Shown here one piece after another: positions 3,827 through 20,669 of a DNA stretch of 33,856 bases. The notes beneath the pieces were generated by a model. The model was not told the DNA's origin, ran no database searches, and saw only the letters and a program-made list of their open reading frames with translations. Made by a program: the position numbers and the translations under genes. Position 1 is the stretch's first letter. The number at the start of each line of letters is the position of its first letter. Source of the DNA: Nitrospirota bacterium (GTDB lineage Bacteria > Nitrospirota > Thermodesulfovibrionia > UBA6902); NCBI GenBank assembly GCA_016213945.1, contig JACQZF010000020.1, forward strand, positions 1 to 33,856, in the 5' to 3' direction.

Positions 3827-3912
3827 AACCACAGAGACACAGAGTCACGGAGAAAAGAATTCCTCATATATATTTTCCTGTTAACTCTCTGCGTCTCCGT
3901 GCCTCTGTGGTT
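3827..3912. repeat. Dispersed inverted repeat, family B (ACCACAGAG...CTCTGTGGT)
   Basis: The left arm AACCACAGAGACACAGAG pairs with the right arm at 3886-3912 ending CCTCTGTGGTT; the two are long, near-perfect inverted copies around an AT-rich centre. It fills the gap between the adaptor and ATPase genes. A related copy is at 33292-33361. Confidence 0.8.
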
Positions 3913-3921
3913 AAATCTTTT

Positions 3922-4626
3922 ATGGAAAACAAACCTCCTATCGTTGAGATAAAAAATCTGTTCAAGTCCTACCGGCGGGGCGCACAGGTAATCCCTGTCT
4001 TGCAGGACATTAATCTTGATATCGGTGAGAGTGAATTCCTGGCACTGATGGGGCCCTCAGGCTCCGGGAAAAGCACACTGCTGAATCTGATAGCTGGAAT
4101 AGACAAGGCTGACAGCGGCCTGATAAAAGTAGTCGGGACGGACATCACTTCTCTTTCTGAGACTGAGCTTGCATTGTGGCGCGCCACCAACGTCGGTTTT
4201 ATCTTTCAGTTTTATAACCTGATCCCGGTGCTTACGGCCTATGAAAATGTCGAGCTTCCCCTGCTCCTGACAGGGCTTTCAAGGAAAGAAAAAAGAGAGC
4301 ATGTGGAGACCGCCCTTCGGGTCGTAAACCTCTCCGACCGGATGGACCATTATCCCGGCCAGTTGTCAGGCGGCCAGCAGCAGCGCGTTGCAATCGCCCG
4401 CGCTGTTGTCACTGACCCGACAATAATAGTTGCTGACGAACCGACCGGAGACCTCGACAGGGTCTCGGCTGAGGAGATACTGGCGCTTATGGAAAGGCTC
4501 GTTCATGAACTCGGCAAGACCATCATAATGGTGACCCACGACCCGCGCGCCGCCAGGATGGCCCATGTCATAAGACATCTTGATAAAGGTGTTTTGAACC
4601 AAAATAATGCAGGTATTATTCAGTAG
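3922..4626 (+). CDS. ABC transporter ATPase, MacB/LolD type
   Basis: The 234-residue nucleotide-binding protein has Walker [10 protein letters not shown] (44-52), Q-loop FQFYNLIP, signature [14 protein letters not shown], Walker [13 protein letters not shown] and switch His in MVTHD. Sequence and size match the LolD/MacB/FtsE-like family that powers FtsX-type permeases in lipoprotein or drug export. Its permeases would be expected immediately downstream but start about 7.9 kb later (12564 and 13821), beyond an inserted block. I chose the ATG at 3922; an in-frame GTG at 3907 lies within the family B repeat and would add five residues. Function as exporter ATPase is firm; the cargo is unknown. 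Confidence 0.9.
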
Positions 4627-4667
4627 AACAAACCTTTAACAGGATTAGTCATTCACTCGAAAATAGG

Positions 4668-4701
4668 TCGTCATTACTGACTTGATCGGGAATCCAGTTT
4701 T
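4668..4701. repeat. Half copy of family A repeat with T-run
   Basis: CGTCATTACTGACTTGATCGGGAATCCAG followed by eight T resembles one half of the family A repeats (compare 24620-24650). No second hairpin is seen. It sits at the left edge of the inserted block, after the ATPase gene. Its poly-T could end transcription, but the stem is weak. Confidence 0.5.
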
Positions 4702-4775
4702 TTTTAATCATTTTTTTCTTTATATCCATTCATAACATCGGATATACTTTATCATTCTTAAAAGAAGGGGACTCA

Positions 4776-7700
4776 ATGGAAGACATCTACTCTATTTTTG
4801 AAAAGCCGAAAAATCCGACGGAATTTGAGGCCATTAAAATAAAGCTTGCCTCTCCCGAAAAAATACGGGCGTGGTCTTATGGTGAAGTAAAAAACCCCGA
4901 GACCATAAATTACCGGACCTTCAAACCTGAAAGAGATGGTCTCTTTTGCGCCAAGATTTTCGGTCCTGTCAAGGACTGGGAATGCATCTGCGGAAAATAC
5001 AAGAGGATGAAACACCGGGGAGTCGTCTGCGACAAATGCGGAGTAGAAGTCATACGGGCAAAGTCGAGACGTGAGAGGCTCGGACACATAGAGCTTGCGA
5101 CATCAGTTTCGCATATCTGGTATTTAAAGAGCAGGCCGAGCATAATCGGGACGCTCCTCGATATGACCATGCGTATGCTTGAAAAAGTGCTCTACTTTGA
5201 AAGCTATATTGTAGTTGATTCCGGTGAAACCAAATTAAAGCAGAGAGATGTATTAAGCGACAAAGAATTCAGGAAACATGTCCAGGAGCATGGTGATACA
5301 TTTCAGGCCGGAATTGGCGCAGAGGCGATTAAAGAACTTCTCAGAGATATTAAACTGGATAATTTATCGGTGGAGCTAAGATCAGGTATCATTCGAACTA
5401 ATTCCCAGACCACAAAAACGAAACTTGCCAGACGGCTGAGAATTGTCGAGGCGTTCAGAAAATCAGGTAATAAACCTGAATGGATGATCATGGACGTTAT
5501 CCCGGTCCTGCCCCCTGACCTCCGTCCGCTCGTTCCACTTGAGGGCGGCAGATTTGCAACATCAGACCTAAACGATCTCTACCGGAGGGTCATAAACAGA
5601 AACAACAGACTCAAGAGACTTATGGAACTTAACGCCCCAAGCGTTATTATCCGCAATGAAAAAAGGATGCTCCAGGAAGCGGTGGACGCGCTGTTTGATA
5701 ATGGCAGGAGAAGCCGCGTGCTCAAGGCTGCAACAAAGAGCCCGCTGAAATCCCTGAGTGACATGATTAAAGGCAAACAGGGACGTTTCAGACAAAATCT
5801 TCTTGGGAAGAGAGTGGATTATTCGGGACGATCAGTTATCGTTCCTGCGCCGGAACTTAAATTGCACCAATGCGGACTTCCCATTAAGATGGCACTTGAA
5901 CTGTTTCGCCCTTTCATTTATAGCAAACTTGATGAAAAAGGTATTGTCACTACAATAAAGGATGCAAAAAGATTGATCGATTCTGCATTTAATTACAATT
6001 TTTATTCATCATTAATGCAAATTTTAAAAGATGAACTGGTTAGCAGAGAAACAATTCTTGATAAACTTTTATCACTTCAAGAAGACGGCATCATCAAAAT
6101 TAATATCCCTAATTTTAATGAAAAAGTATTTAAGACATGGGAGTCATTATTAAAAATTGTCACATATTATGAAAAAAAACATAAAATACCTCCAACTTTC
6201 CGAGAAACGATCTCAACGCTCTATAAAGAAGGCTATATCGCAGTAGGTGAAAAGGTCAAAGAACTTAAAAACGATTATAAGATAATATTAAGCAGCCTTG
6301 AAGAGGTCACTGCTGAACACCCCATTATTCTCAACAGACAACCGACACTTCACCGTCTTGGCATACAGGCGTTTGATCCAGTACTGACAGACGGCAAGGC
6401 GATAAGACTGCACCCTCTTGTCTGCAAGGCGTTTAACGCCGATTTTGACGGCGACCAGATGACAGTTCATGTACCGCTTTCACTTGAGGCGAAGATTGAG
6501 TCTCGTGTGTTGATGATGTCTGTGAACAATATTCTCAGTCCGGCAAACGGCAGGCCTGTTATGACTCCGACTCAGGATATGTTATTGGGCATTTATTACT
6601 TGACGAAAGAAAGACCGGATGCAAAGCATGTGGAGACAATCTTTTCAGGCGCTGACGAAGTCAGATGTGCTTATGATGCTGGGGTTATTGATGAGCATAC
6701 AAAAATCAAGGTCAGAATCAACGGTAATTTTCAAGACACGACAACAGGGAGGATTGTTTTACATGGGTTATTTCCCTGCGGATTTCCATTTGAGAAGATA
6801 AACAAAACTATAACCAATAGCGACATTGAGGAAATCATCGCAATTTTATATAACCTATTCGGCAAACAAGATACAGTGGAGACTTTAGACAGGCTGATGA
6901 GGGCAGGCTTTGAGTATGCGACAAAGTCAGGCATCTCCGTCTGCATGGATGATATCGTCACTCCTGCAGCCCGGAATCATATTATTGAAGATACGACAAT
7001 TAAAGAAAGTGAATATATGAAAATGTTTAGTAAGACGAACAACGATGATGATGAGTCTTTATTTACATCAGATGAACAGAAAAAACCGATTGTCGCATTA
7101 TGGCAGACGGCAGCAGATTTGATAAATAATCAAGTTAAATACACTTTTGAAAAAGCAGATAGTTCACTTAATGACATTTATATGATGATTGACTCCGGCG
7201 CAAGGGGTAGCTGGTCGCAGTTGCAGTATATTGCAGGGATTAAAGGTCTTGTTGCTGATCCGACCGGAGAGATCATTCCTTATGCAATTACGTCTAATTT
7301 AAGAGATGGGTTATCACCGTTTCAGTACTTTATTTCAACATACGGAGCACGAAAAGGACTGACAGATATTGCGTTAAGAACAGCTAATTCAGGATACCTC
7401 ATGAGAAGGCTTGTGAATGTAGCGCAGGAAATTGTAATTTCAGAAGAAGACTGCGGAACTTCAGACGGGATTTATATATCAGCCATCTCTTTGAATACTA
7501 TATCAATCTCATCTCTTGAAAATAGGATAACGGGAAGATTTTCTGCAGAAGAAATCCTACATCCAGCAACAAATGAAATTATTCTGATGCCTGATAAGGA
7601 AATAACAGAGGCAAAGGCAGAGAATATATTTACATCAGGTTTAGAAAAAATAAAAATAAGATCAGTCCTTACATGTCATGCTGTTAATGGAGTTTGTGCA

Positions 7701-8399
7701 AAATGTTATGGCAGAAATCTTTCCACTGGTCAAATAGTGGATATCGGAGAATCTGTGGGAATTATAGCAGCTCAATCAATAGGAGAACCCGCTACACAGC
7801 TTATTATGGATAGCAAACATTTAAATGGCAGCAATGGATTACCAAGAATAGTTGAATTGTTTGAGGCAAGACAGCCAAAGGATAAAACCTCAGTAAATAT
7901 TCAACGAATACTTGAAGAAACTGGATTAAGAGAGGCGCAGTTGGCTATTCTAAACGAACTTCAGATTGTCTATCGTCTTCAACATATCTGTATCAATGAT
8001 AAACACTTTGAGATAATTATCAGAAAGATGACTGAGAATATAAAGATTGAAGACCCCGGCGATACACTCTTTCTAAGAGGAGAAACCGTTCATAGACAAA
8101 TATTCGTTGAAGAAAACACTCAGGTTCAGTTTGAGGGTGGGAAACCTTCTATCGGGAAGCCGCTACTTATGGGTATTACAAAGGCTACGTTATCAACTGA
8201 TAGCTGGATTTCAGCGGCTTCATTTCAAGAAACTACAAAAGTTCTAACCGAGGCGGCAATTAATGGAGCAGTGGATGAGTTAAAAGGTCTCAAGGAAAAC
8301 GTTATCATAGGCGGGCTTATTCCTGCTGGGACTGGAATGCCAGGATATAAGGATACTTTTGTTGAAAGTAACGTTGGGGAAGTAGGCGAGAATCTTTGA
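4776..8399 (+). CDS. Divergent orphan RNA polymerase beta' subunit paralogue (RpoC-like)
   Basis: The product is 1207 residues against about 1350-1400 for usual RpoC. The N-terminal zinc ribbon is intact (C70, C72, C85, C88), as are the switch/lid region ([14 protein letters not shown], 342-355), the Mg-binding NADFDGDQ (554-561), the bridge helix ([12 protein letters not shown], 850-861) and the second zinc site (C893, C967, C974, C977). Oddities: about 95 extra AT-rich residues (402-508) replace a short linker; the trigger loop reads [11 protein letters not shown] instead of QLTMRTFHxGG, so the conserved Arg is Asp1012 while Met1011 and His1015 remain; the loop tip is shortened; and the jaw segment after [10 protein letters not shown] is missing. 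GAAGGGG precedes the ATG. No rpoB, rplL or rpsL is nearby. The 5' third looks compositionally native and the 3' part is much more AT-rich. It may be a specialised or competing polymerase subunit; function unproven. Confidence 0.9.
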
Positions 8400-8455
8400 T
8401 ATAATAAACAAACATTGGGATCATAATATATTCAGGGAGGGTAAAAGGAGGTCAC

Positions 8456-8725
8456 ATGAAATTGCGAGCAACTATTGAATTATGGCAAAAGGGGGACTGG
8501 TGTATTGCCAGAATGCCGGAACTGGATTTTGTGGCACAGGGGAGGACTATTGAAGAAGCGAAGGCAAATCTCTCTGAAGTTGTTAAAATCCAGTTTGAAG
8601 AAATGAGAGGGATGGGGACTCTTGATGACTATCTCGCTGAATGCGGTTATGTCATTAAAGGCGATACGGTTGAACCCGAGAATGAGATCATCGGGTTTGA
8701 AAAACAGACTATGCAGGTTGCCTGA
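8456..8725 (+). CDS. hicB: HicB-family antitoxin
   Basis: The 89-residue protein has the HicB partial RNase H-like fold pattern: a beta strand, then WCIARMPELDFVAQGRTIEEAKANLSEVV. It is preceded by a near-perfect ribosome-binding site (AAAGGAGGT, seven to eight bases before the ATG). Its stop overlaps the start of the HicA-type gene (TGATG), so the pair is translationally coupled. HicB proteins neutralise HicA and often autoregulate through a C-terminal DNA-binding part; no clear helix-turn-helix is visible here. It begins 56 bases after the RpoC-like stop, probably in one transcript. Confidence 0.85.
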   Translation: MKLRATIELWQKGDWCIARMPELDFVAQGRTIEEAKANLSEVVKIQFEEMRGMGTLDDYLAECGYVIKGDTVEPENEIIGFEKQTMQVA

Positions 8726-8955
8726 TGCCGAAAATATTCCCTACCGACTGGAAAACCCTGTTAAAGATATTTGAGATGCACGGCTGCATATATAAACGAA
8801 AAGAAGGATCACATCATGTCCTGACCTGTCCCGGCGCTAAACGAGCTGTAGTTATTCCCGAATATAAAGCGATCGATGTCGATATTATAAAAAGCAACAT
8901 GCGTACAGTTAATATGAGCAGAGAAGAATATTTTGAACTACTGAAAAAAATATAA
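8725..8955 (+). CDS. hicA: HicA-family mRNA interferase toxin
   Basis: The 76-residue basic protein has the double-stranded-RNA-binding-like HicA fold. It carries KRKEGSHHVLTCPGAKRAVVIP, where the GSH histidine (H30) corresponds to the catalytic His of HicA, and a Lys/Asp helix after it. Known HicA toxins cleave mRNA ribosome-independently. The ATG overlaps the hicB stop by one base. The order is hicB-hicA, reversed relative to E. coli but common elsewhere. The pair could stabilise the inserted block. Confidence 0.85.
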   Translation: MPKIFPTDWKTLLKIFEMHGCIYKRKEGSHHVLTCPGAKRAVVIPEYKAIDVDIIKSNMRTVNMSREEYFELLKKI

Positions 8956-9040
8956 GGACAGAATGTTAAAAGCTAATGATGATTAAAATGATTTCTATAT
9001 ACATCCGATCATTTAAAAACAATTTTTTTTACCTATATAT

Positions 9041-9478
9041 TTGAGGTCTGAAAAACAATATTATTTGGATAATAAAAAGCAAAACATAAAAAATATAGAA
9101 CAATATGGGAAAATACATAGCGGGAGAGAAGTCGGTAAGACTACTTGGCCTTTGTGGATATGTAATGACATAATTGGCTATCTTCTTATTGGAGTTGATC
9201 CAAAAGAATCATACATATTTGAGTTATACGGAATAGATCATAAAAAAGGTTATAAGAGGATCCCACCACATCCGGGGTGGAGGCGATCAAATATGATGGG
9301 GTGGATAGAACAGGAGAAATATGGATTCACCGATAATTATATTACGCCATCTAATGATGGACTATCAGATTTTCTAAAAAAGATTCATGGGAATTTAGGA
9401 AAACGTAAAAAGTATTTTGATTTAGATTATTGGTTAAGAGTTGTTACTTGTTTTGATTTGAAAAAGTTTTTGAGTTGA
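9041..9478 (+). CDS. Hypothetical protein, 145 residues, AT-rich
   Basis: I do not recognise this protein. It is rich in Lys, Tyr, Trp and Ile, with no membrane segment or signal peptide. Stretches such as WPLWICNDIIGYLLIGVDPK and PPHPGWRRSNMMGW suggest a compact globular domain. The start is uncertain: TTG at 9041 has no Shine-Dalgarno, and the frame is open back to 9017 without an ATG. The base composition is clearly more A/T rich than the flanking chromosomal genes, in keeping with the foreign block it sits in, between HicA and the SNF2 helicase. Confidence 0.55.
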   Translation: MRSEKQYYLDNKKQNIKNIEQYGKIHSGREVGKTTWPLWICNDIIGYLLIGVDPKESYIFELYGIDHKKGYKRIPPHPGWRRSNMMGWIEQEKYGFTDNYITPSNDGLSDFLKKIHGNLGKRKKYFDLDYWLRVVTCFDLKKFLS

Positions 9479-9528
9479 GAGTGTTCTATATCTAACCCCC
9501 AATAATCTTACAAATTTTGATAAAAACA

Positions 9529-12500
9529 ATGACGAAAGGCCGTTTGATTTTAACAGATAGTTTTAAGACAGACGTAATCCCTCTTTCCCACTTCCACCAA
9601 ACTATCATAGCCCATGAGCTTACTCTCAAACGCGCATCTATCGACATGCGAAAGATGGAGGCCCCGCTTTCGTCTGCAATGGTTGATCTGAATCCGCATC
9701 AGATAGACGCAGGGCTTTTTGCATTTAAAGGGCCGATGTCAAAAGGGGCGATTCTTTGTGACGAGGTTGGGTTGGGGAAGACTATTGAGGCAGGGCTTAT
9801 CATCTGCCAGTTATGGGCTGAAGGAAAGCGGAAGATTATCGTTGTAGTTCCAGCTTCTATAAGAAAGCAGTGGCAGAATGAGTTGCTGGAAAAGTTCAGC
9901 ATCCCATGCGTCATAGTTGATGGTTTTGAATATAGGCAGGCAAAGAAAAACGGCAAAAAGAATCCTTTTGACAGGAATGAAGTCGTAATAACCTCGATAC
10001 CATTTGCCTCAATGAAGTCTCCTGATGTTGCATCAGCCGGGAGATGGGATTTGGTGGTTATTGATGAGGCACATCGCCTGAGAAATGTATATAAGAAAAC
10101 AGGCAGTATACAGGCAAAGAAGCTAAAAGAGATATTCACGGGGATTCCCAAAATACTCTTAACCGCTACTCCGCTTCAAAATACTCTGATGGAGCTTTAC
10201 GGACTTACAAGCATTATTGATGAGCGGATATTTGGATCTGAGTACGCCTTTAAAGTAAAATTTATAGCTGATTCAAGTGGACATGTAGCCAATAATCTTG
10301 AGCTATTGAAGGAACGTCTTTCATCCGTTGCTATACGGACTATCAGAAGACAGGTTCGGGAATATATTCCCTATACAAACCGCATTTCAATGTTGGAAGA
10401 TTTTACGCCAACAGATGAAGAGCTTAAGCTTTATGAACAGGTATCCGGATACCTGCAGCGGCCTGTAGCAGCGGCCATTCCTACCAAACAAAGACACCTT
10501 ATGATCTTGATATACAGGAAAATTCTTGCCAGTTCAAGCTTTGCAATTGCCAAAACCCTTCAGAGTCTTATAGACAACGTTGAAAAACAGATCAAAGGGT
10601 TGCATCCTGTATCAATAGAAGACTTGATAAACGATATGGATGGATACGAAGAAGAAAAAGAGGACATAGCAAAAAGGGAGGATGGAGAAACAGTTGAAGA
10701 TGATGAAGATGGAAAAGGGAAAAAAGTCGTTAAGGTGGCATTTTCATTAGATCAGCTCGAATCAGAAAAAGAAGAACTGCTTTCAATGAAAAACCGCGCT
10801 GAATCCATCCACAAAAACGCTAAGGGTGACGCCTTGTTGATGGCGATTGAAAAGGCTTTTTCCCATGCGAGGAAGATGGGCTGGAGCGAAAAGGCGGTTG
10901 TTTTTACTGAATCAAGAAGGACACAGGAATATCTTTTAAGACTCTTTTCCGGTAACGGATATAAAGACCAGATAACCAACTTCAATGGAACAAACGAAAG
11001 CCCTATTGCAAAGAGGGCGTATGCACTGTGGGAACAAGAAAGGGTAAGACATGAAGGAGAAGGCATGCTCTCAAAGGACGCTGTTATAAGAGAGGCATTG
11101 ATACATGAGTTTAAGCATCATACTAAAATCCTGATTTCTACGGAGGCTGGGGCTGAGGGCATCAACCTTCAGTTTTGTAATATCGTCATCAATTATGATC
11201 TTCCGTGGAATCCTCAGCGTGTTGAGCAGAGGATAGGCAGATGTCACAGATACGGTCAGCAAAATGATGTGGTAGTTCTCAATTTTCTTAACAGGTCGAA
11301 TGCAGCAGACAAAAGGGTCTTTGAACTTCTTGATAAAAAATTCAGGCTCTTTAACGGTGTCTTCGGCGCATCTGATGAAATACTCGGTGCAATCGGTTCA
11401 GGAATTGATTTTGAGCAACGCATACTTGATATATACCAATCCTGTAGGACCGAAAATGAAATTAACACTGCATTTGACAAACTTCAGGAAGAACTCTCCG
11501 AACAAATCGATCAGAGAATGCTTGAAACAAGGGCAAAACTTCTTGAGCATTTTGACGATGAAGTGCGGGCGCGATTCAAGGTTATTAATAAAAAGATCAG
11601 AGAAGACCTGTCTGCTATTGATATGATGCTTGCAAGTCTGATTATAAGCGCCATAGGGATTAAAGAGTTTGATTTGACTGATGGAATATGTAGGCTACAA
11701 ATTGATTCTATCCCTAAAGAAATTGCTGCTCAGGCCCAAGAAAAGCTCTTGCCGGGACAATACTATATCGGTAGATATTTTGAATGCTCAGACTGTGAAC
11801 GAATACATCTTGGGCATTCTCTCACCAATGCTGTGATTCGGAAGATCAAAGAGATGGAGTCTGACAAGATACGCTTTATAAGGCTCTGTTACTCTGAGGG
11901 TGATCACAAAATTTCTCAGCTTGAACCATATATCGGCAAGAACGGTTTCTGGACCGTATATAAATTTGTTCTTGAAGGTCTGGATACAGAAGAACATTTG
12001 ATACATGTTGTTCTTATATGGGACAAAAATGAGTGGATCATTTTGAAGCAGGAATTAGCAGAGAAGCTGGTTAATATTATGGCAAAAGAAAAAGAGATGA
12101 TAAATGCAGATATAAATACCATGCGGGTACCGGATGATGACCTGATAGAATCTGCCCTTGTAGAGATTGGAAATAACCTTTCAGAAAAAATCGGTGTAAG
12201 AAATGAGGAATATTATGATGCCGAACTTGATAAACTGGAGTTATACGCAGAAGAAGTTTTGTTGCGACTTTATGATGAGCTAAAAGAAAAGGAAGCGGAT
12301 CTTAATGAAGCTAAGAAGAAAAAACAGAGGGCTTTGAACTTTGAAGAGCGACAGGATGCAAGAAAGGATATACATAAACTTGAAATGTCATACAGCCATC
12401 TTACTGATAAAATAGCACAAAAGAAGAAGCAACTTTTTGAAGAAAAAGACAGAGAGATGAAAGGCCTTGAGAAGAAATTGAAATTGAAGGTTCAAAAGAC

Positions 12501-12534
12501 CTGCATTGCAAAAGCATGTTACGTGATGGAGTGA
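9529..12534 (+). CDS. Large SNF2/RapA-like helicase-family ATPase
   Basis: The product is about 1001 residues. The first RecA lobe has Walker A DEVGLGKT (78-85), DEAH (179-182) and TATPLQN (212-218). An acidic linker (about 373-400) precedes the second lobe, with STEAGAEGINLQF (537-549) and QRIGRCHRYGQ (567-577). The C-terminus carries one CxxC (753/756) and a long charged coiled coil (about 915-985). Such stand-alone SNF2 proteins include RapA, which recycles RNA polymerase, and DISARM DrmD-like defence proteins; sequence alone does not settle which. No methylase or nuclease partner is adjacent. I chose ATG 9529; an in-frame TTG at 9517 is possible. The last codons and stop fall within a repeat shared with 19911-19945, so the C-terminus may have been created by a recombination junction. 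Confidence 0.85.
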   Translation: MTKGRLILTDSFKTDVIPLSHFHQTIIAHELTLKRASIDMRKMEAPLSSAMVDLNPHQIDAGLFAFKGPMSKGAILCDEVGLGKTIEAGLIICQLWAEGKRKIIVVVPASIRKQWQNELLEKFSIPCVIVDGFEYRQAKKNGKKNPFDRNEVVITSIPFASMKSPDVASAGRWDLVVIDEAHRLRNVYKKTGSIQAKKLKEIFTGIPKILLTATPLQNTLMELYGLTSIIDERIFGSEYAFKVKFIADSSGHVANNLELLKERLSSVAIRTIRRQVREYIPYTNRISMLEDFTPTDEELKLYEQVSGYLQRPVAAAIPTKQRHLMILIYRKILASSSFAIAKTLQSLIDNVEKQIKGLHPVSIEDLINDMDGYEEEKEDIAKREDGETVEDDEDGKGKKVVKVAFSLDQLESEKEELLSMKNRAESIHKNAKGDALLMAIEKAFSHARKMGWSEKAVVFTESRRTQEYLLRLFSGNGYKDQITNFNGTNESPIAKRAYALWEQERVRHEGEGMLSKDAVIREALIHEFKHHTKILISTEAGAEGINLQFCNIVINYDLPWNPQRVEQRIGRCHRYGQQNDVVVLNFLNRSNAADKRVFELLDKKFRLFNGVFGASDEILGAIGSGIDFEQRILDIYQSCRTENEINTAFDKLQEELSEQIDQRMLETRAKLLEHFDDEVRARFKVINKKIREDLSAIDMMLASLIISAIGIKEFDLTDGICRLQIDSIPKEIAAQAQEKLLPGQYYIGRYFECSDCERIHLGHSLTNAVIRKIKEMESDKIRFIRLCYSEGDHKISQLEPYIGKNGFWTVYKFVLEGLDTEEHLIHVVLIWDKNEWIILKQELAEKLVNIMAKEKEMINADINTMRVPDDDLIESALVEIGNNLSEKIGVRNEEYYDAELDKLELYAEEVLLRLYDELKEKEADLNEAKKKKQRALNFEERQDARKDIHKLEMSYSHLTDKIAQKKKQLFEEKDREMKGLEKKLKLKVQKTCIAKACYVME
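12499..12531 (+). repeat. Direct repeat copy 1 at right edge of inserted block
   Basis: A 20-base stretch beginning ACCTGCATTGC is identical to 19911-19930. After a 4-base (here) versus 5-base gap, ten more identical bases follow (GTGATGGAGT). The copy overlaps the end of the SNF2 gene and lies about 30 bases before the first permease gene. Confidence 0.7.
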
Positions 12535-12563
12535 GTAGATGCAAGAGAGATTGAATTATAACA

Positions 12564-13721
12564 ATGCAAATCTTCAAGCTCATATATAAAAATGCCTTCC
12601 GTCACAAGCTGCGCACCTTCCTTACCATTGCGGGCATCAGCATTGCCATACTTTCATTCGGTCTTCTCCGCACTGTGATAAGCGCCTGGTATGTGGGTGT
12701 CGAAGCCTCTTCCGCAAACCGTCTTGTAACAAGGAATTCTATATCCCTGATTTTCCCGCTCCCCATTTCCTATAAAGATAAGATCCGCCAGATAGACGGG
12801 GTGTCAAACGTGTCTTACGGGAACTGGTTCGGCGGAATTTATATTGACGAAAAAAACTTCTTCGCCAATTTTGCCGTGGAGCCTGAGAGTTATTTGAAGC
12901 TGTATCCCGAATACGTCCTCCCGCCGGACCAGAAGGCCGCATTCTTACGGGACAGAAAGGGATTTTTTGCGGGAAGAAAGCTCGCTGAGAAATACAAGTG
13001 GAAACCCGGAGACACCGTTGTCCTCAAAGGCACCATTTTCCCCGGGGAATGGGATTTTGTACTGCGCGCTATTTATAAGGGCCGGGACAAGAACATAGAT
13101 GAAACACAGTTCATCTTCCACTGGGATTACCTCAATGAGACCATGAAAAAGACCGCGCCGCTTCGCGCTGACCAGGTCGGCTTTTACATGATCAGCGTGA
13201 AGAACCCGGCACTTGCCGCGGACGTATCGGTGGCTGTAGACAAAACTTTCAAGAACTCTCTTGCAGAAACACTTACCGAGACGGAGAAGGCCTTTCAGTT
13301 GAGTTTTATCTCGATGAGCGAGGCGATCGTGGTCGCCATACAGATGGTTTCGTTTGTCGTGATAATCATAATCATGGCTGTAATGGCAAACACCATGGCA
13401 ATGTCCGCCAGGGAGCGCTTCAGTGAATACGCGGTATTTAAGACCCTCGGTTTCGGAGGCGCTTACATCGCCGGTCTTATATTCGGTGAATCGCTCTTCA
13501 TCACCTCGATCGGATGCATCCTTGGGATTATTCTGACCTTTCCTGCCGCGCAGGCATTCGGCAGCGCCATGAGCCAGTTCTTCCCGGTGTTTAATGTTTC
13601 GGTCAAAACCATTTATCTTGATATCGCTTCATCGTTAGTGGTCGGAATTACAGCGGCGATCATCCCTTCCTACCGCGCCGTCAGCATCAGCATAGCAGAC
13701 GGTCTGAGGAGAATAGGATGA
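12564..13721 (+). CDS. FtsX/MacB-type ABC permease 1
   Basis: The protein is 385 residues. An N-terminal basic segment and membrane helix (FRHKLRTFLTIAGISIAILSFGLL) are followed by a periplasmic domain of about 200 residues. Three further helices sit in the FtsX domain (about 262-285, 304-330, 352-375), with the conserved REFSEYAVFKTLGF-like stretch and ...IPSYRAVSISIADGLR near the end. This is the expected membrane partner of the ATPase at 3922-4626, from which it is separated by the inserted block. AGAGAG precedes the ATG. The cargo is unknown. Confidence 0.9.
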   Translation: MQIFKLIYKNAFRHKLRTFLTIAGISIAILSFGLLRTVISAWYVGVEASSANRLVTRNSISLIFPLPISYKDKIRQIDGVSNVSYGNWFGGIYIDEKNFFANFAVEPESYLKLYPEYVLPPDQKAAFLRDRKGFFAGRKLAEKYKWKPGDTVVLKGTIFPGEWDFVLRAIYKGRDKNIDETQFIFHWDYLNETMKKTAPLRADQVGFYMISVKNPALAADVSVAVDKTFKNSLAETLTETEKAFQLSFISMSEAIVVAIQMVSFVVIIIIMAVMANTMAMSARERFSEYAVFKTLGFGGAYIAGLIFGESLFITSIGCILGIILTFPAAQAFGSAMSQFFPVFNVSVKTIYLDIASSLVVGITAAIIPSYRAVSISIADGLRRIG

Positions 13722-18289: not shown

Positions 18290-18330
18290 AGATTAAGTGG
18301 GATATTGAATTTTATATTTTGAATTGTCAA

Positions 18331-19047
18331 ATGGTCTGTCTAATCACTGGTTCATCAAGAGGTCTCGGAAAAGCTGTTGCTCTCGCTTTCGGAAAGCGGG
18401 GGCATCGGGTTGTTGTCCACTATAAAGATAAAAAGTGTGAGGCTGAGGCAGTTGCTTCCGGGATTAGAGAATCACTGGCGCTCAAAGCTGATGTCAGAGA
18501 TTTTAAAGAGGTGGAATCTCTGGTTGAAAAAGTCGTGGAGAAATGGGGTCGCATTGATGTGCTTGTGAATAACGCCGGAATTACAAAAGAGGCCCTGCTG
18601 CTAAAAACATCTGAAAATGATTTTGACGAAGTAGTCAACACCAACCTCAAAGGGCCGTTCAATTTCATCCGCGCAGTTATCCCATACATGATAAAACCCC
18701 ACAATCAAACTATCAAACATATCATCAACATCTCTTCCATCGCCGGAATAAAAGGCAAGGCAGGCTTGTCAGCTTACTCGGCATCAAAGGCAGGCCTGAC
18801 CGGTTTAACAATAAGCGCGGCACGAGAGTTAGGCGAACACAACATCATGGTCAATGCAGTGCTTCCCGGATACATGCTGACCGAAATGGGAATAGCGTCG
18901 AATGAGAAAGCAAAGGAACTCGCGCTTCAGGACAGTCTCGTAAAGCAATTCTCTAACCCGCACAATGTCGCCGACTTTATCTGCTACCTCTCAGAGACAA
19001 AAGAAATAACAGGACAGGTTTTCAATCTCGATTCAAGGATATTGTAG
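18331..19047 (+). CDS. Short-chain dehydrogenase/reductase (FabG-like) in biotin block
   Basis: The protein is about 238 residues. Its Rossmann motif is TGSSRGLGKA, with the NNAG motif (VLVNNAGITKEA), catalytic Ser in ISSIAG and YSASKAG with the catalytic Tyr and Lys. It closely follows the 3-oxoacyl-ACP reductase (FabG) pattern but is encoded between bioF and bioD, so it may serve pimeloyl-chain synthesis for biotin; that is inference from context. I chose the ATG at 18331; a TTG at 18319 would add four residues. Neither has a clear Shine-Dalgarno. The stop codon lies at the edge of a strong hairpin. Confidence 0.85.
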   Translation: MVCLITGSSRGLGKAVALAFGKRGHRVVVHYKDKKCEAEAVASGIRESLALKADVRDFKEVESLVEKVVEKWGRIDVLVNNAGITKEALLLKTSENDFDEVVNTNLKGPFNFIRAVIPYMIKPHNQTIKHIINISSIAGIKGKAGLSAYSASKAGLTGLTISAARELGEHNIMVNAVLPGYMLTEMGIASNEKAKELALQDSLVKQFSNPHNVADFICYLSETKEITGQVFNLDSRIL

Positions 19048-19078
19048 GGGCAGGCCTTACGCCTGCCCGGTTATTTTT
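19048..19078 (+). terminator. GC-rich hairpin with T-run after the SDR gene
   Basis: GGGCAGGC and GCCTGCCC form a perfect 8-bp stem with a 5-base loop, followed by GGTTATTTTTT. It would work as a Rho-independent terminator. The whole stretch (TAGGGGCAGGC...GCCTGCCCGG) also resembles a common dispersed repeat, so it may be a repeat acting as terminator. Confidence 0.65.
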
Positions 19079-19106
19079 TCTCTTTAAATCCAGCCTTCCC
19101 ATTGTC

Positions 19107-19126
19107 TATAATTTAACTGATATAAT
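19107..19126 (+). promoter_or_regulatory. Possible promoter region for the antitoxin/PIN pair (two TATAAT boxes)
   Basis: Two perfect TATAAT hexamers (19107-19112 and 19121-19126) lie upstream of the antitoxin gene and after the hairpin terminator. No well-spaced -35 is evident, so assignment rests on the -10 boxes only. Confidence 0.35.
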
Positions 19127-19178
19127 GAAGATTGAATTTAAAGGAAACATTACAGGATAGGATTAGGAGGTGCAAACA

Positions 19179-19373
19179 ATGAAGACACTGCAAGCTGAAT
19201 TGCCTGATAAGCTATATGAACAGATTAAAATCCTTGTTGATGCTGGATGGTTTCTTGATGAAAAATCTGTTTTAACTGAAGCCTTGCGCCGTTTTCTTGA
19301 AACACACAAACCGGAACTCATGGAAAAGTTTATAAAAGAAGACATCGAGTGGGGTTTGCGTGGAAAAGACTGA
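19179..19373 (+). CDS. Small antitoxin-like protein partnered with PIN toxin
   Basis: The 64-residue protein begins KTLQAELPDKLYEQIKILVDAGWF, then DEKSVLTEALRRFLETH, resembling ribbon-helix-helix antitoxins that pair with DUF3368-type PIN toxins. AGGAGG eight bases before the ATG at 19179 fixes the start; an in-frame GTG inside that Shine-Dalgarno (19170) is not used. Its end overlaps the toxin start by 14 bases. Antitoxins of this type bind both toxin and operator; no operator was identified. Confidence 0.8.
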   Translation: MKTLQAELPDKLYEQIKILVDAGWFLDEKSVLTEALRRFLETHKPELMEKFIKEDIEWGLRGKD

Positions 19374-19887
19374 GCAGTCAACTGCCCCAATTATTGTTAT
19401 AGATGCGGGCCCGATCATTCATCTCGATGAGCTTGGGAGCCTCCAACTTCTTTCGGATTTTAAAAAGCTTCTGGTTCCAGACGCTGTATGGCACGAAATA
19501 GAACACCATAGGCCGTCAGCCTTTAATGATAAAAAAATCTCTCTTGATAAAATTCAGGTTCCTCAAGATAGAAACGCGCATATCCAAATAGTTTGTAATT
19601 CATTCAACCTTGATGCCGGAGAAACAGAAGCAATAATTTTATGCTCCAATCATCCTCATTCCATTCTTCTAACTGATGATGCTGCCGCAAGACTTGCAGC
19701 CAATGCGCTGGGTTTAAGGGCGTATGGTACTATCGGTGTACTTTTGAGGGCTATAAGAAGAAAGCAGCTTACGCCTGGTGACGTTATCAAAAAACTGGAA
19801 GAAATTTCATTGAAGTCAAGTTTGTTCGTAAGGCATAGTTTGCTGGAAGAAATAATAGTAAAGGTTAAAAAGGAATACGGTCCTTAA
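19360..19887 (+). CDS. PIN-domain toxin-like nuclease (DUF3368/VapC-like)
   Basis: The 175-residue protein has PIN-type acidic residues: IVIDAGPIIHL near the N-terminus, VWHEIEHH, then LDAGETEAIIL and LLTDDAAARLAA in the middle. The order and spacing match DUF3368 PIN proteins, predicted Mg-dependent RNases. The start is GTG (19360), overlapping the antitoxin gene by 14 bases, which implies coupling. The pair lies between the biotin SDR gene and bioD and so seems inserted in the biotin block. Target RNA is unknown. Confidence 0.82.
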   Translation: MEKTEQSTAPIIVIDAGPIIHLDELGSLQLLSDFKKLLVPDAVWHEIEHHRPSAFNDKKISLDKIQVPQDRNAHIQIVCNSFNLDAGETEAIILCSNHPHSILLTDDAAARLAANALGLRAYGTIGVLLRAIRRKQLTPGDVIKKLEEISLKSSLFVRHSLLEEIIVKVKKEYGP

Positions 19888-19910: not shown

Positions 19911-19945
19911 ACCTGCATTGCAAAAGCATGGGTGTGTGATGGAGT
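19911..19945 (+). repeat. Direct repeat copy 2 at right edge of toxin-antitoxin insertion
   Basis: It is identical over 20 bases (19911-19930) and then ten bases (19936-19945) to 12499-12531, with a one-base difference in gap length. It lies just before bioD. Confidence 0.7.
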
Positions 19946-19964: not shown

Positions 19965-20669
19965 ATGGTTACTATGCACAAAGGCATCTTCATAACAGGC
20001 ACTGACACTGGCGTCGGCAAGTCATTTGTAGCAATCGGTCTGATGAGGGCTTTTAAGGAAATGGGATTGAGCGTCTGTCCCATGAAGCCGGTGGAGACAG
20101 GCTGCAAGGTTCGGAAGGGGAAGCTCATTCCGGCTGATACGGTGAAACTTATCAACGCCGCTAATGTGAATGAGCCGCTTGACCTCATCAACCCTTACCG
20201 CTTCAGACAACCGCTTGCCCCGGCAGTAGCGGCTGAGGTTGAGGGAGTTGTAATCAAAAAAGAAAAGATATTGTCCGCCTGCAAACAACTTTCAAAGAGA
20301 TACGACATTACAATTGTCGAAGGCGCGGGCGGGATAATGGCGCCTGTGTATAAAAGATATCTTTTTCTTGACCTTATAAAAGATCTGAGACTGCCGGTCG
20401 TAATCGTTGCAAGGCCCGGCCTCGGAACGATCAACCATACCCTCCTGACGATAAATGCCGCAAGGAGCAACGGAATTGAAGTTCTTGGAGTGATAATAAA
20501 TTATGCAAGTGAGATTAAAAAAGATATTTCCATGAGGACTAACCCTGAACTGATCGAGGGGCTTGGCAGGGTCCCGGTATTGGGTACTTTGCCATTTTCT
20601 AATACGTTAAAAAAATATCCCGGAAAAGTATTTCAGCAAATTGCAAAAAATATTTTGTCCTGTCTTTAA
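19965..20669 (+). CDS. bioD: Dethiobiotin synthetase
   Basis: The product is about 234 residues. The ATP-binding loop GTDTGVGKS (12-20) is followed by MKPVETGC, VEGAGGIMAPV and VIVARPGLGTINHTLLT, the full set of BioD motifs. It catalyses ATP-dependent carboxylation of 7,8-diaminopelargonate. I chose ATG 19965, preceded by AAAGAG; an ATG at 19974 (MHKGIFITGTD) is almost as likely, and a GTG at 19932 lies inside the direct repeat and is unlikely. It follows the PIN toxin gene. Confidence 0.93.
   Translation: MVTMHKGIFITGTDTGVGKSFVAIGLMRAFKEMGLSVCPMKPVETGCKVRKGKLIPADTVKLINAANVNEPLDLINPYRFRQPLAPAVAAEVEGVVIKKEKILSACKQLSKRYDITIVEGAGGIMAPVYKRYLFLDLIKDLRLPVVIVARPGLGTINHTLLTINAARSNGIEVLGVIINYASEIKKDISMRTNPELIEGLGRVPVLGTLPFSNTLKKYPGKVFQQIAKNILSCL

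Follow-up and report, generated by a model that had tools for sequence, protein, structure and literature searches.

The 20 + 10-base direct repeat that precedes both permease 1 and bioD in the window (the whole 33,856-nt stretch of contig JACQZF010000020.1 from a Nitrospirota bacterium) is best explained as the scar of a gene cluster relocation. Its two copies would be paralogous 3' ends of one gene, encoding an SNF2 helicase, and would have no role in recombination; we assign this reading a probability of about 0.88. The copies and the genes next to them are as follows:

12499..12532, + strand: repeat copy 1 (20 + 4 + 10 nt), comprising the final 11 codons of SNF2 and the first base of its stop codon TGA (12532-12534)
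19911..19945, + strand: repeat copy 2 (20 + 5 + 10 nt), remains of an earlier SNF2 3' end, frameshifted and located in the bioD leader, as aligned to the relatives G005 and G006
9517..12534, + strand: DrmD-like SNF2 helicase, with profile matches to DrmD
19974..20669, + strand: bioD, with the start codon set by comparison with G004, G005, and G006

Each copy consists of the identical 20-mer ACCTGCATTGCAAAAGCATG (12499-12518 and 19911-19930), a gap of TTAC (4 nt) in copy 1 or GGTGT (5 nt) in copy 2, and GTGATGGAGT at the close (12523-12532 and 19936-19945), in agreement with the preliminary description of this DNA. With up to three mismatches allowed, the 19-mer core had two matches in the window, and dinucleotide shuffles of the window gave a mean of 0.02 and never two. 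The 10-mer was not significant by itself, while its register was. A search of the whole 3.5-Mb genome (≤3 mismatches) retrieved only these two copies, both inside the window, which ruled out the dispersed intergenic element that the preliminary description had named as a counter-explanation. The repeat pair is real, local, and non-dispersed. Exact matches to the 19-mer in Ensifer and Microbulbifer, as well as one of 18 nt in a viral contig, were judged to be due to chance; no 10-mer was present there at the correct spacing, and the matches with two or three mismatches in other relatives had unrelated contexts.

Copy 1 is read in the SNF2 frame and closes this ORF (...KTCIAKACYVME and stop), as had been proposed. 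The C-termini of SNF2 orthologs elsewhere are alike, with ...ICIAKAGWKMV and stop in G013 and ...LIAQAIWRME and stop in G049, at loci unrelated to bioD or permeases, and the copy 1 C-terminus matches the G005 ortholog as well. As this C-terminus is kept in orthologs of other genera, the repeat belongs to SNF2 itself rather than being the end of an added element.

Among 120 relatives searched, one-mismatch matches to the repeat were found in two congeners, G005 and G006, and near-identical matches occurred only at SNF2 ends with bioD directly after. In G005, the genes run band7-hlyD-ABC-perm1-perm2-nfeD-queE-bioF-fabG-RpoC2 (disrupted)-...-SNF2-bioD, and ABC overlaps perm1. G006 has the same overlap. 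A distance of 6 kb separates its fabG from bioD, and the cluster between them is degraded; the stretch holds other genes, a C-terminal fragment of rpoC2, and, directly before bioD, a stump with the last 68 bp of SNF2 (87% identity). Because the intact gene of G005 and the stump of G006 both precede bioD, copy 2 is an SNF2 relic at the bioD-linked site, homologous to the end of the intact gene and syntenic with both. The 20 + 10 stump with its one-base frameshift is the sole SNF2 remainder before bioD in the window. The start of bioD that relatives share is the ATG at 19974, not the GTG at 19932, and copy 2 is thus untranslated leader.

The preliminary description had placed the repeat at the right edge of two insertions. 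This holds for the first site, where it is the end of SNF2 itself, and fails for the second, where it lies between a toxin-antitoxin pair and bioD and belongs to neither. The same sequence at two right edges would fit an att-like recombination site, or a terminus of a mobile element family to which both blocks would owe their insertion. We consider this very improbable, as the repeat is SNF2 coding sequence kept in orthologs elsewhere, has no further copies in the genome, and is missing from the empty fabG|bioD and ABC|permease 1 sites of relatives; its near-identical matches in relatives are confined to SNF2 ends, no matching left end, terminal inverted repeats, or recombinase was found for the insert, and the arrangement in G005 and G006 contradicts it. 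An integron attC site was set aside once the repeat proved to be SNF2 coding sequence, and tRNA-linked integration was ruled out because the window contains no tRNA. Of the shared mobile origin that had been suggested, what stands is that the copies are remnants of one mobile gene cluster; a recombination site or common element end does not, and the toxin-antitoxin block does not share its end with the SNF2 block. A regulatory element kept upstream of both bioD and permease 1 would agree with the start codon located 28-31 nt downstream of each copy. This explanation is hardly credible, because the repeat (≤3 mismatches) is missing from G001-G004, G007, and G008, genomes that each carry bioD, and copy 1 is coding sequence.

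The intact SNF2 gene is carried by a segment located between the genes for an ABC ATPase and a permease:

3907..4626, + strand: ABC ATPase, last codons replaced at the insertion
4594..4611, + strand: 18-bp target duplication, left copy, TTGAACCAAAATAATGCA, where the ABC ORF ends and permease 1 formerly started; 16/18 to G004
4612..12550, + strand: inserted segment of ~7.9 kb (RpoC2-HicBA-orf-SNF2), missing at ABC|permease 1 in all relatives read
12551..12568, + strand: 18-bp target duplication, right copy, TTGAATTATAACAATGCA, including the permease 1 start codon; 16/18 to G004
12564..13721, + strand: FtsX-like permease 1, which overlaps or directly follows the ABC gene in most relatives

That both sites are insertions, as previously described, was borne out by the relatives, in most of which ABC|permease 1 and fabG|bioD are contiguous. 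At the former, eleven relatives (G001, G003-G006, G008, G009, G026, G038, G042, and G044) have an empty site, with the two genes directly joined or no more than about 220 bp apart, and fabG lies next to bioD (≤100 bp) in seven (G001, G002, G003, G007, G008, G013, and G026). The nearest relative is G004, with 97% identity in perm1; its empty ABC|permease 1 site holds a single TTGAATCAAAACAATGCA, and the boundary sequence is TTTTGAATCAAAACAATGCAACTTC. The two flanking 18-mers are the only window segments that agree with the 18-mer of G004 at 15/18 or more. They are 14/18 identical to each other, and this difference makes an assembly joint at a shared word unlikely. The simplest reading of these sequences is that 4612-12550 was inserted in one event that duplicated 18 bp of the target, and that the duplicates have mutated since. 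The G004 site could in principle instead be a post-excision product of recombination between two such 18-mers.

No terminal inverted repeats were found, as the left end of the segment matched the reverse complement of its right end no better than shuffles did (p = 0.6 and 0.36). A search for a matching left end showed no similarity between the two inserts on that side. Scans with Pfam, NCBIfam, and PADLOC detected no recombinase or transposase among the insert genes; an enzyme encoded outside the insert may have acted in trans.

A tandem duplication from the ABC/permease boundary to the end of SNF2, followed by differential loss, would need no insertion: the first copy would have lost permease 1 through fabG, and the second would have lost RpoC2 through SNF2 with the stump remaining. 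One such event would yield both the SNF2|permease 1 junction and the stump before bioD with the strand unchanged. However, the starts of the duplication and of the deletion would have to coincide by chance within 18 bp in ~6.6 kb, and nothing else of a second permease...fabG copy was seen, so that we regard this course of events as unlikely.

The fabG|bioD interval, in which a copy of the cluster would once have stood, is occupied by other sequences in the window:

18319..19047, + strand: fabG-like reductase, left neighbor of the fabG|bioD hotspot
19067..19152, + strand: candidate left stump of the cluster, from the region upstream of RpoC2
19179..19887, + strand: toxin-antitoxin pair, with a small antitoxin (19179-19373) and a PIN-domain protein (19360-19887; PADLOC PDC-S70)

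The segment 19067..19152 was the top match in the window to the fabG-rpoC2 intergenic region of G005 (score 44, next 41), a weak suggestion of a left stump derived from the RpoC2 upstream region. In G004, two short genes between fabG and bioD (L149, 17440-18121) resemble a RelBE-type pair, and the repeat search in relatives found no SNF2 stump before bioD in this genome. On gene content, fabG|bioD is a turnover hotspot for toxin-antitoxin and defense-like genes within the biotin gene cluster. The cargo seen at this position among congeners is RelBE-like, a large TIR-like protein, MazEF-like, or PIN, and the position is empty in others; the cargo region of G006 spans 10588-16627 of L038.

In the history that we propose, the cluster RpoC2...SNF2 would have lain between fabG and bioD, as it does or did in at least two congeners, with the SNF2 tail abutting bioD. 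In the lineage of the window, a copy of it would have entered ABC|permease 1 at a staggered break, which would account for the 18-bp target duplication, either by capture at the break or through an enzyme acting in trans. The bioD-linked copy would then have been lost, with only ~30 nt of its end surviving in the bioD leader, and the PIN toxin-antitoxin pair would later have come to fill the former place of the cluster. As G004 has no stump at bioD, a loss in G004 or a different history must be assumed for it. We found no directly relevant paper in the literature on relic or duplication-loss mechanisms.

The SNF2 genes of the window and G005 differ at 122 of 310 fourfold sites (0.39), compared with 0.49-0.72 for individual core genes (pooled about 0.60) and 0.61 for the first part of RpoC2. 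The fourfold divergence of SNF2 between the window and G013 is 0.65, and the low value is thus not intrinsic to the gene. These values indicate that SNF2 was probably exchanged horizontally between lineages after the species split. The ~20 nt after the SNF2 stop showed no significant similarity to the bioD leader. The inserted copy may have come by direct copying from the chromosome's own bioD locus or from another strain.

The remaining genes of the cluster are the following:

4776..8399, + strand: RpoC2, paralogous to the housekeeping beta' subunit of RNA polymerase, NADFDGD motif retained
8456..8955, + strand: HicB-like antitoxin (8456-8725) and HicA toxin (8725-8955), with orthologs at the same place in G013
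9041..9478, + strand: ORF of 145 aa with no family match

The first 403 residues of RpoC2 (4776-5984) are ~85% identical to the housekeeping RpoC of the genus and the rest only ~52%, which suggests a gene conversion product or hybrid gene. The identity to the housekeeping subunit on contig C21 is 84% over residues 1-403 and about 52% over 502-1029. An insertion of ~95 residues shortly before the catalytic NADFDGD motif is present in the RpoC2 of the window (5982-6279, residues ~403-502) and of G389, and is missing from the RpoC2 of G025 and two housekeeping RpoC proteins.

RpoC2 and close SNF2 homologs occur together in G000, G005, G013, G025, and G389, the last from another family, and the SNF2 homolog of G049 had no adjoining RpoC2 in the 19 kb read, so that the pairing is common but not invariable. 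A variable toxin-antitoxin pair (HicBA, MazEF-like, or PIN) lies between the RpoC paralog and the DrmD-like SNF2 gene in the window (4776-12534) and at L036, L160, L162, and L188; the window has HicBA as in G013, and the pair in G005 and G006 is predicted to be MazEF-like. In G389, rpoB directly precedes the RpoC paralog; it is the sole rpoB found in the assembly and may be housekeeping. A second SNF2 gene, 43% identical to that of the window, was found close to ribosomal protein genes (L195, G000:C95, 9263-12136) and is followed by apparent restriction/helicase genes. Our literature search for a linked RpoC paralog retrieved nothing relevant. An unrecognised mobile module, composed of an RNA polymerase beta' paralog that retains its catalytic motif, a DrmD-like SNF2 protein, and an exchangeable toxin-antitoxin pair, which might serve defense or alternative transcription and move by recombinase-free capture at staggered breaks, is a speculative proposal that we put forward with considerable doubt.

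The repeat itself is explained and ordinary, and the stump documents the relocation of a gene cluster within a bacterial lineage. With empty, occupied, and former sites available, it provides a clean natural case of movement of a defense-like cluster without an encoded recombinase. The recurring cluster of an RpoC paralog and an SNF2 helicase is more interesting than the repeat and merits study.

Three known systems were compared with the locus. The SNF2 protein resembles the DrmD of class 1 DISARM (E = 1.5e-203 to PADLOC DrmD; 678.6 bits to NCBIfam DISARM_DrmD_b), but this score is under the curated DrmD cutoff of 950 bits, and no DrmA, DrmB, DrmC, or methylase is encoded among the neighboring genes in the window, which are RpoC2, HicBA, the ORF without a family match, and permease 1. 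The empty site of the nearest relative, the short flanking duplication, and the clean borders are as in an insertion with target-site duplication (transposon-like or by break capture). Target duplications of 18 bp are long for known bacterial transposases, and the difference here is this length together with an insert that has no terminal inverted repeats, transposase, integrase, or reverse transcriptase. Copy 2 is most like a gene relic or pseudogene stump, that is, a short, frameshifted 3' remnant at the place where relatives keep the intact gene. The difference from such relics is that the intact gene persists 7.4 kb away, which gives the stump the appearance of a direct repeat and illustrates that a gene stump can mimic the end of a mobile element.
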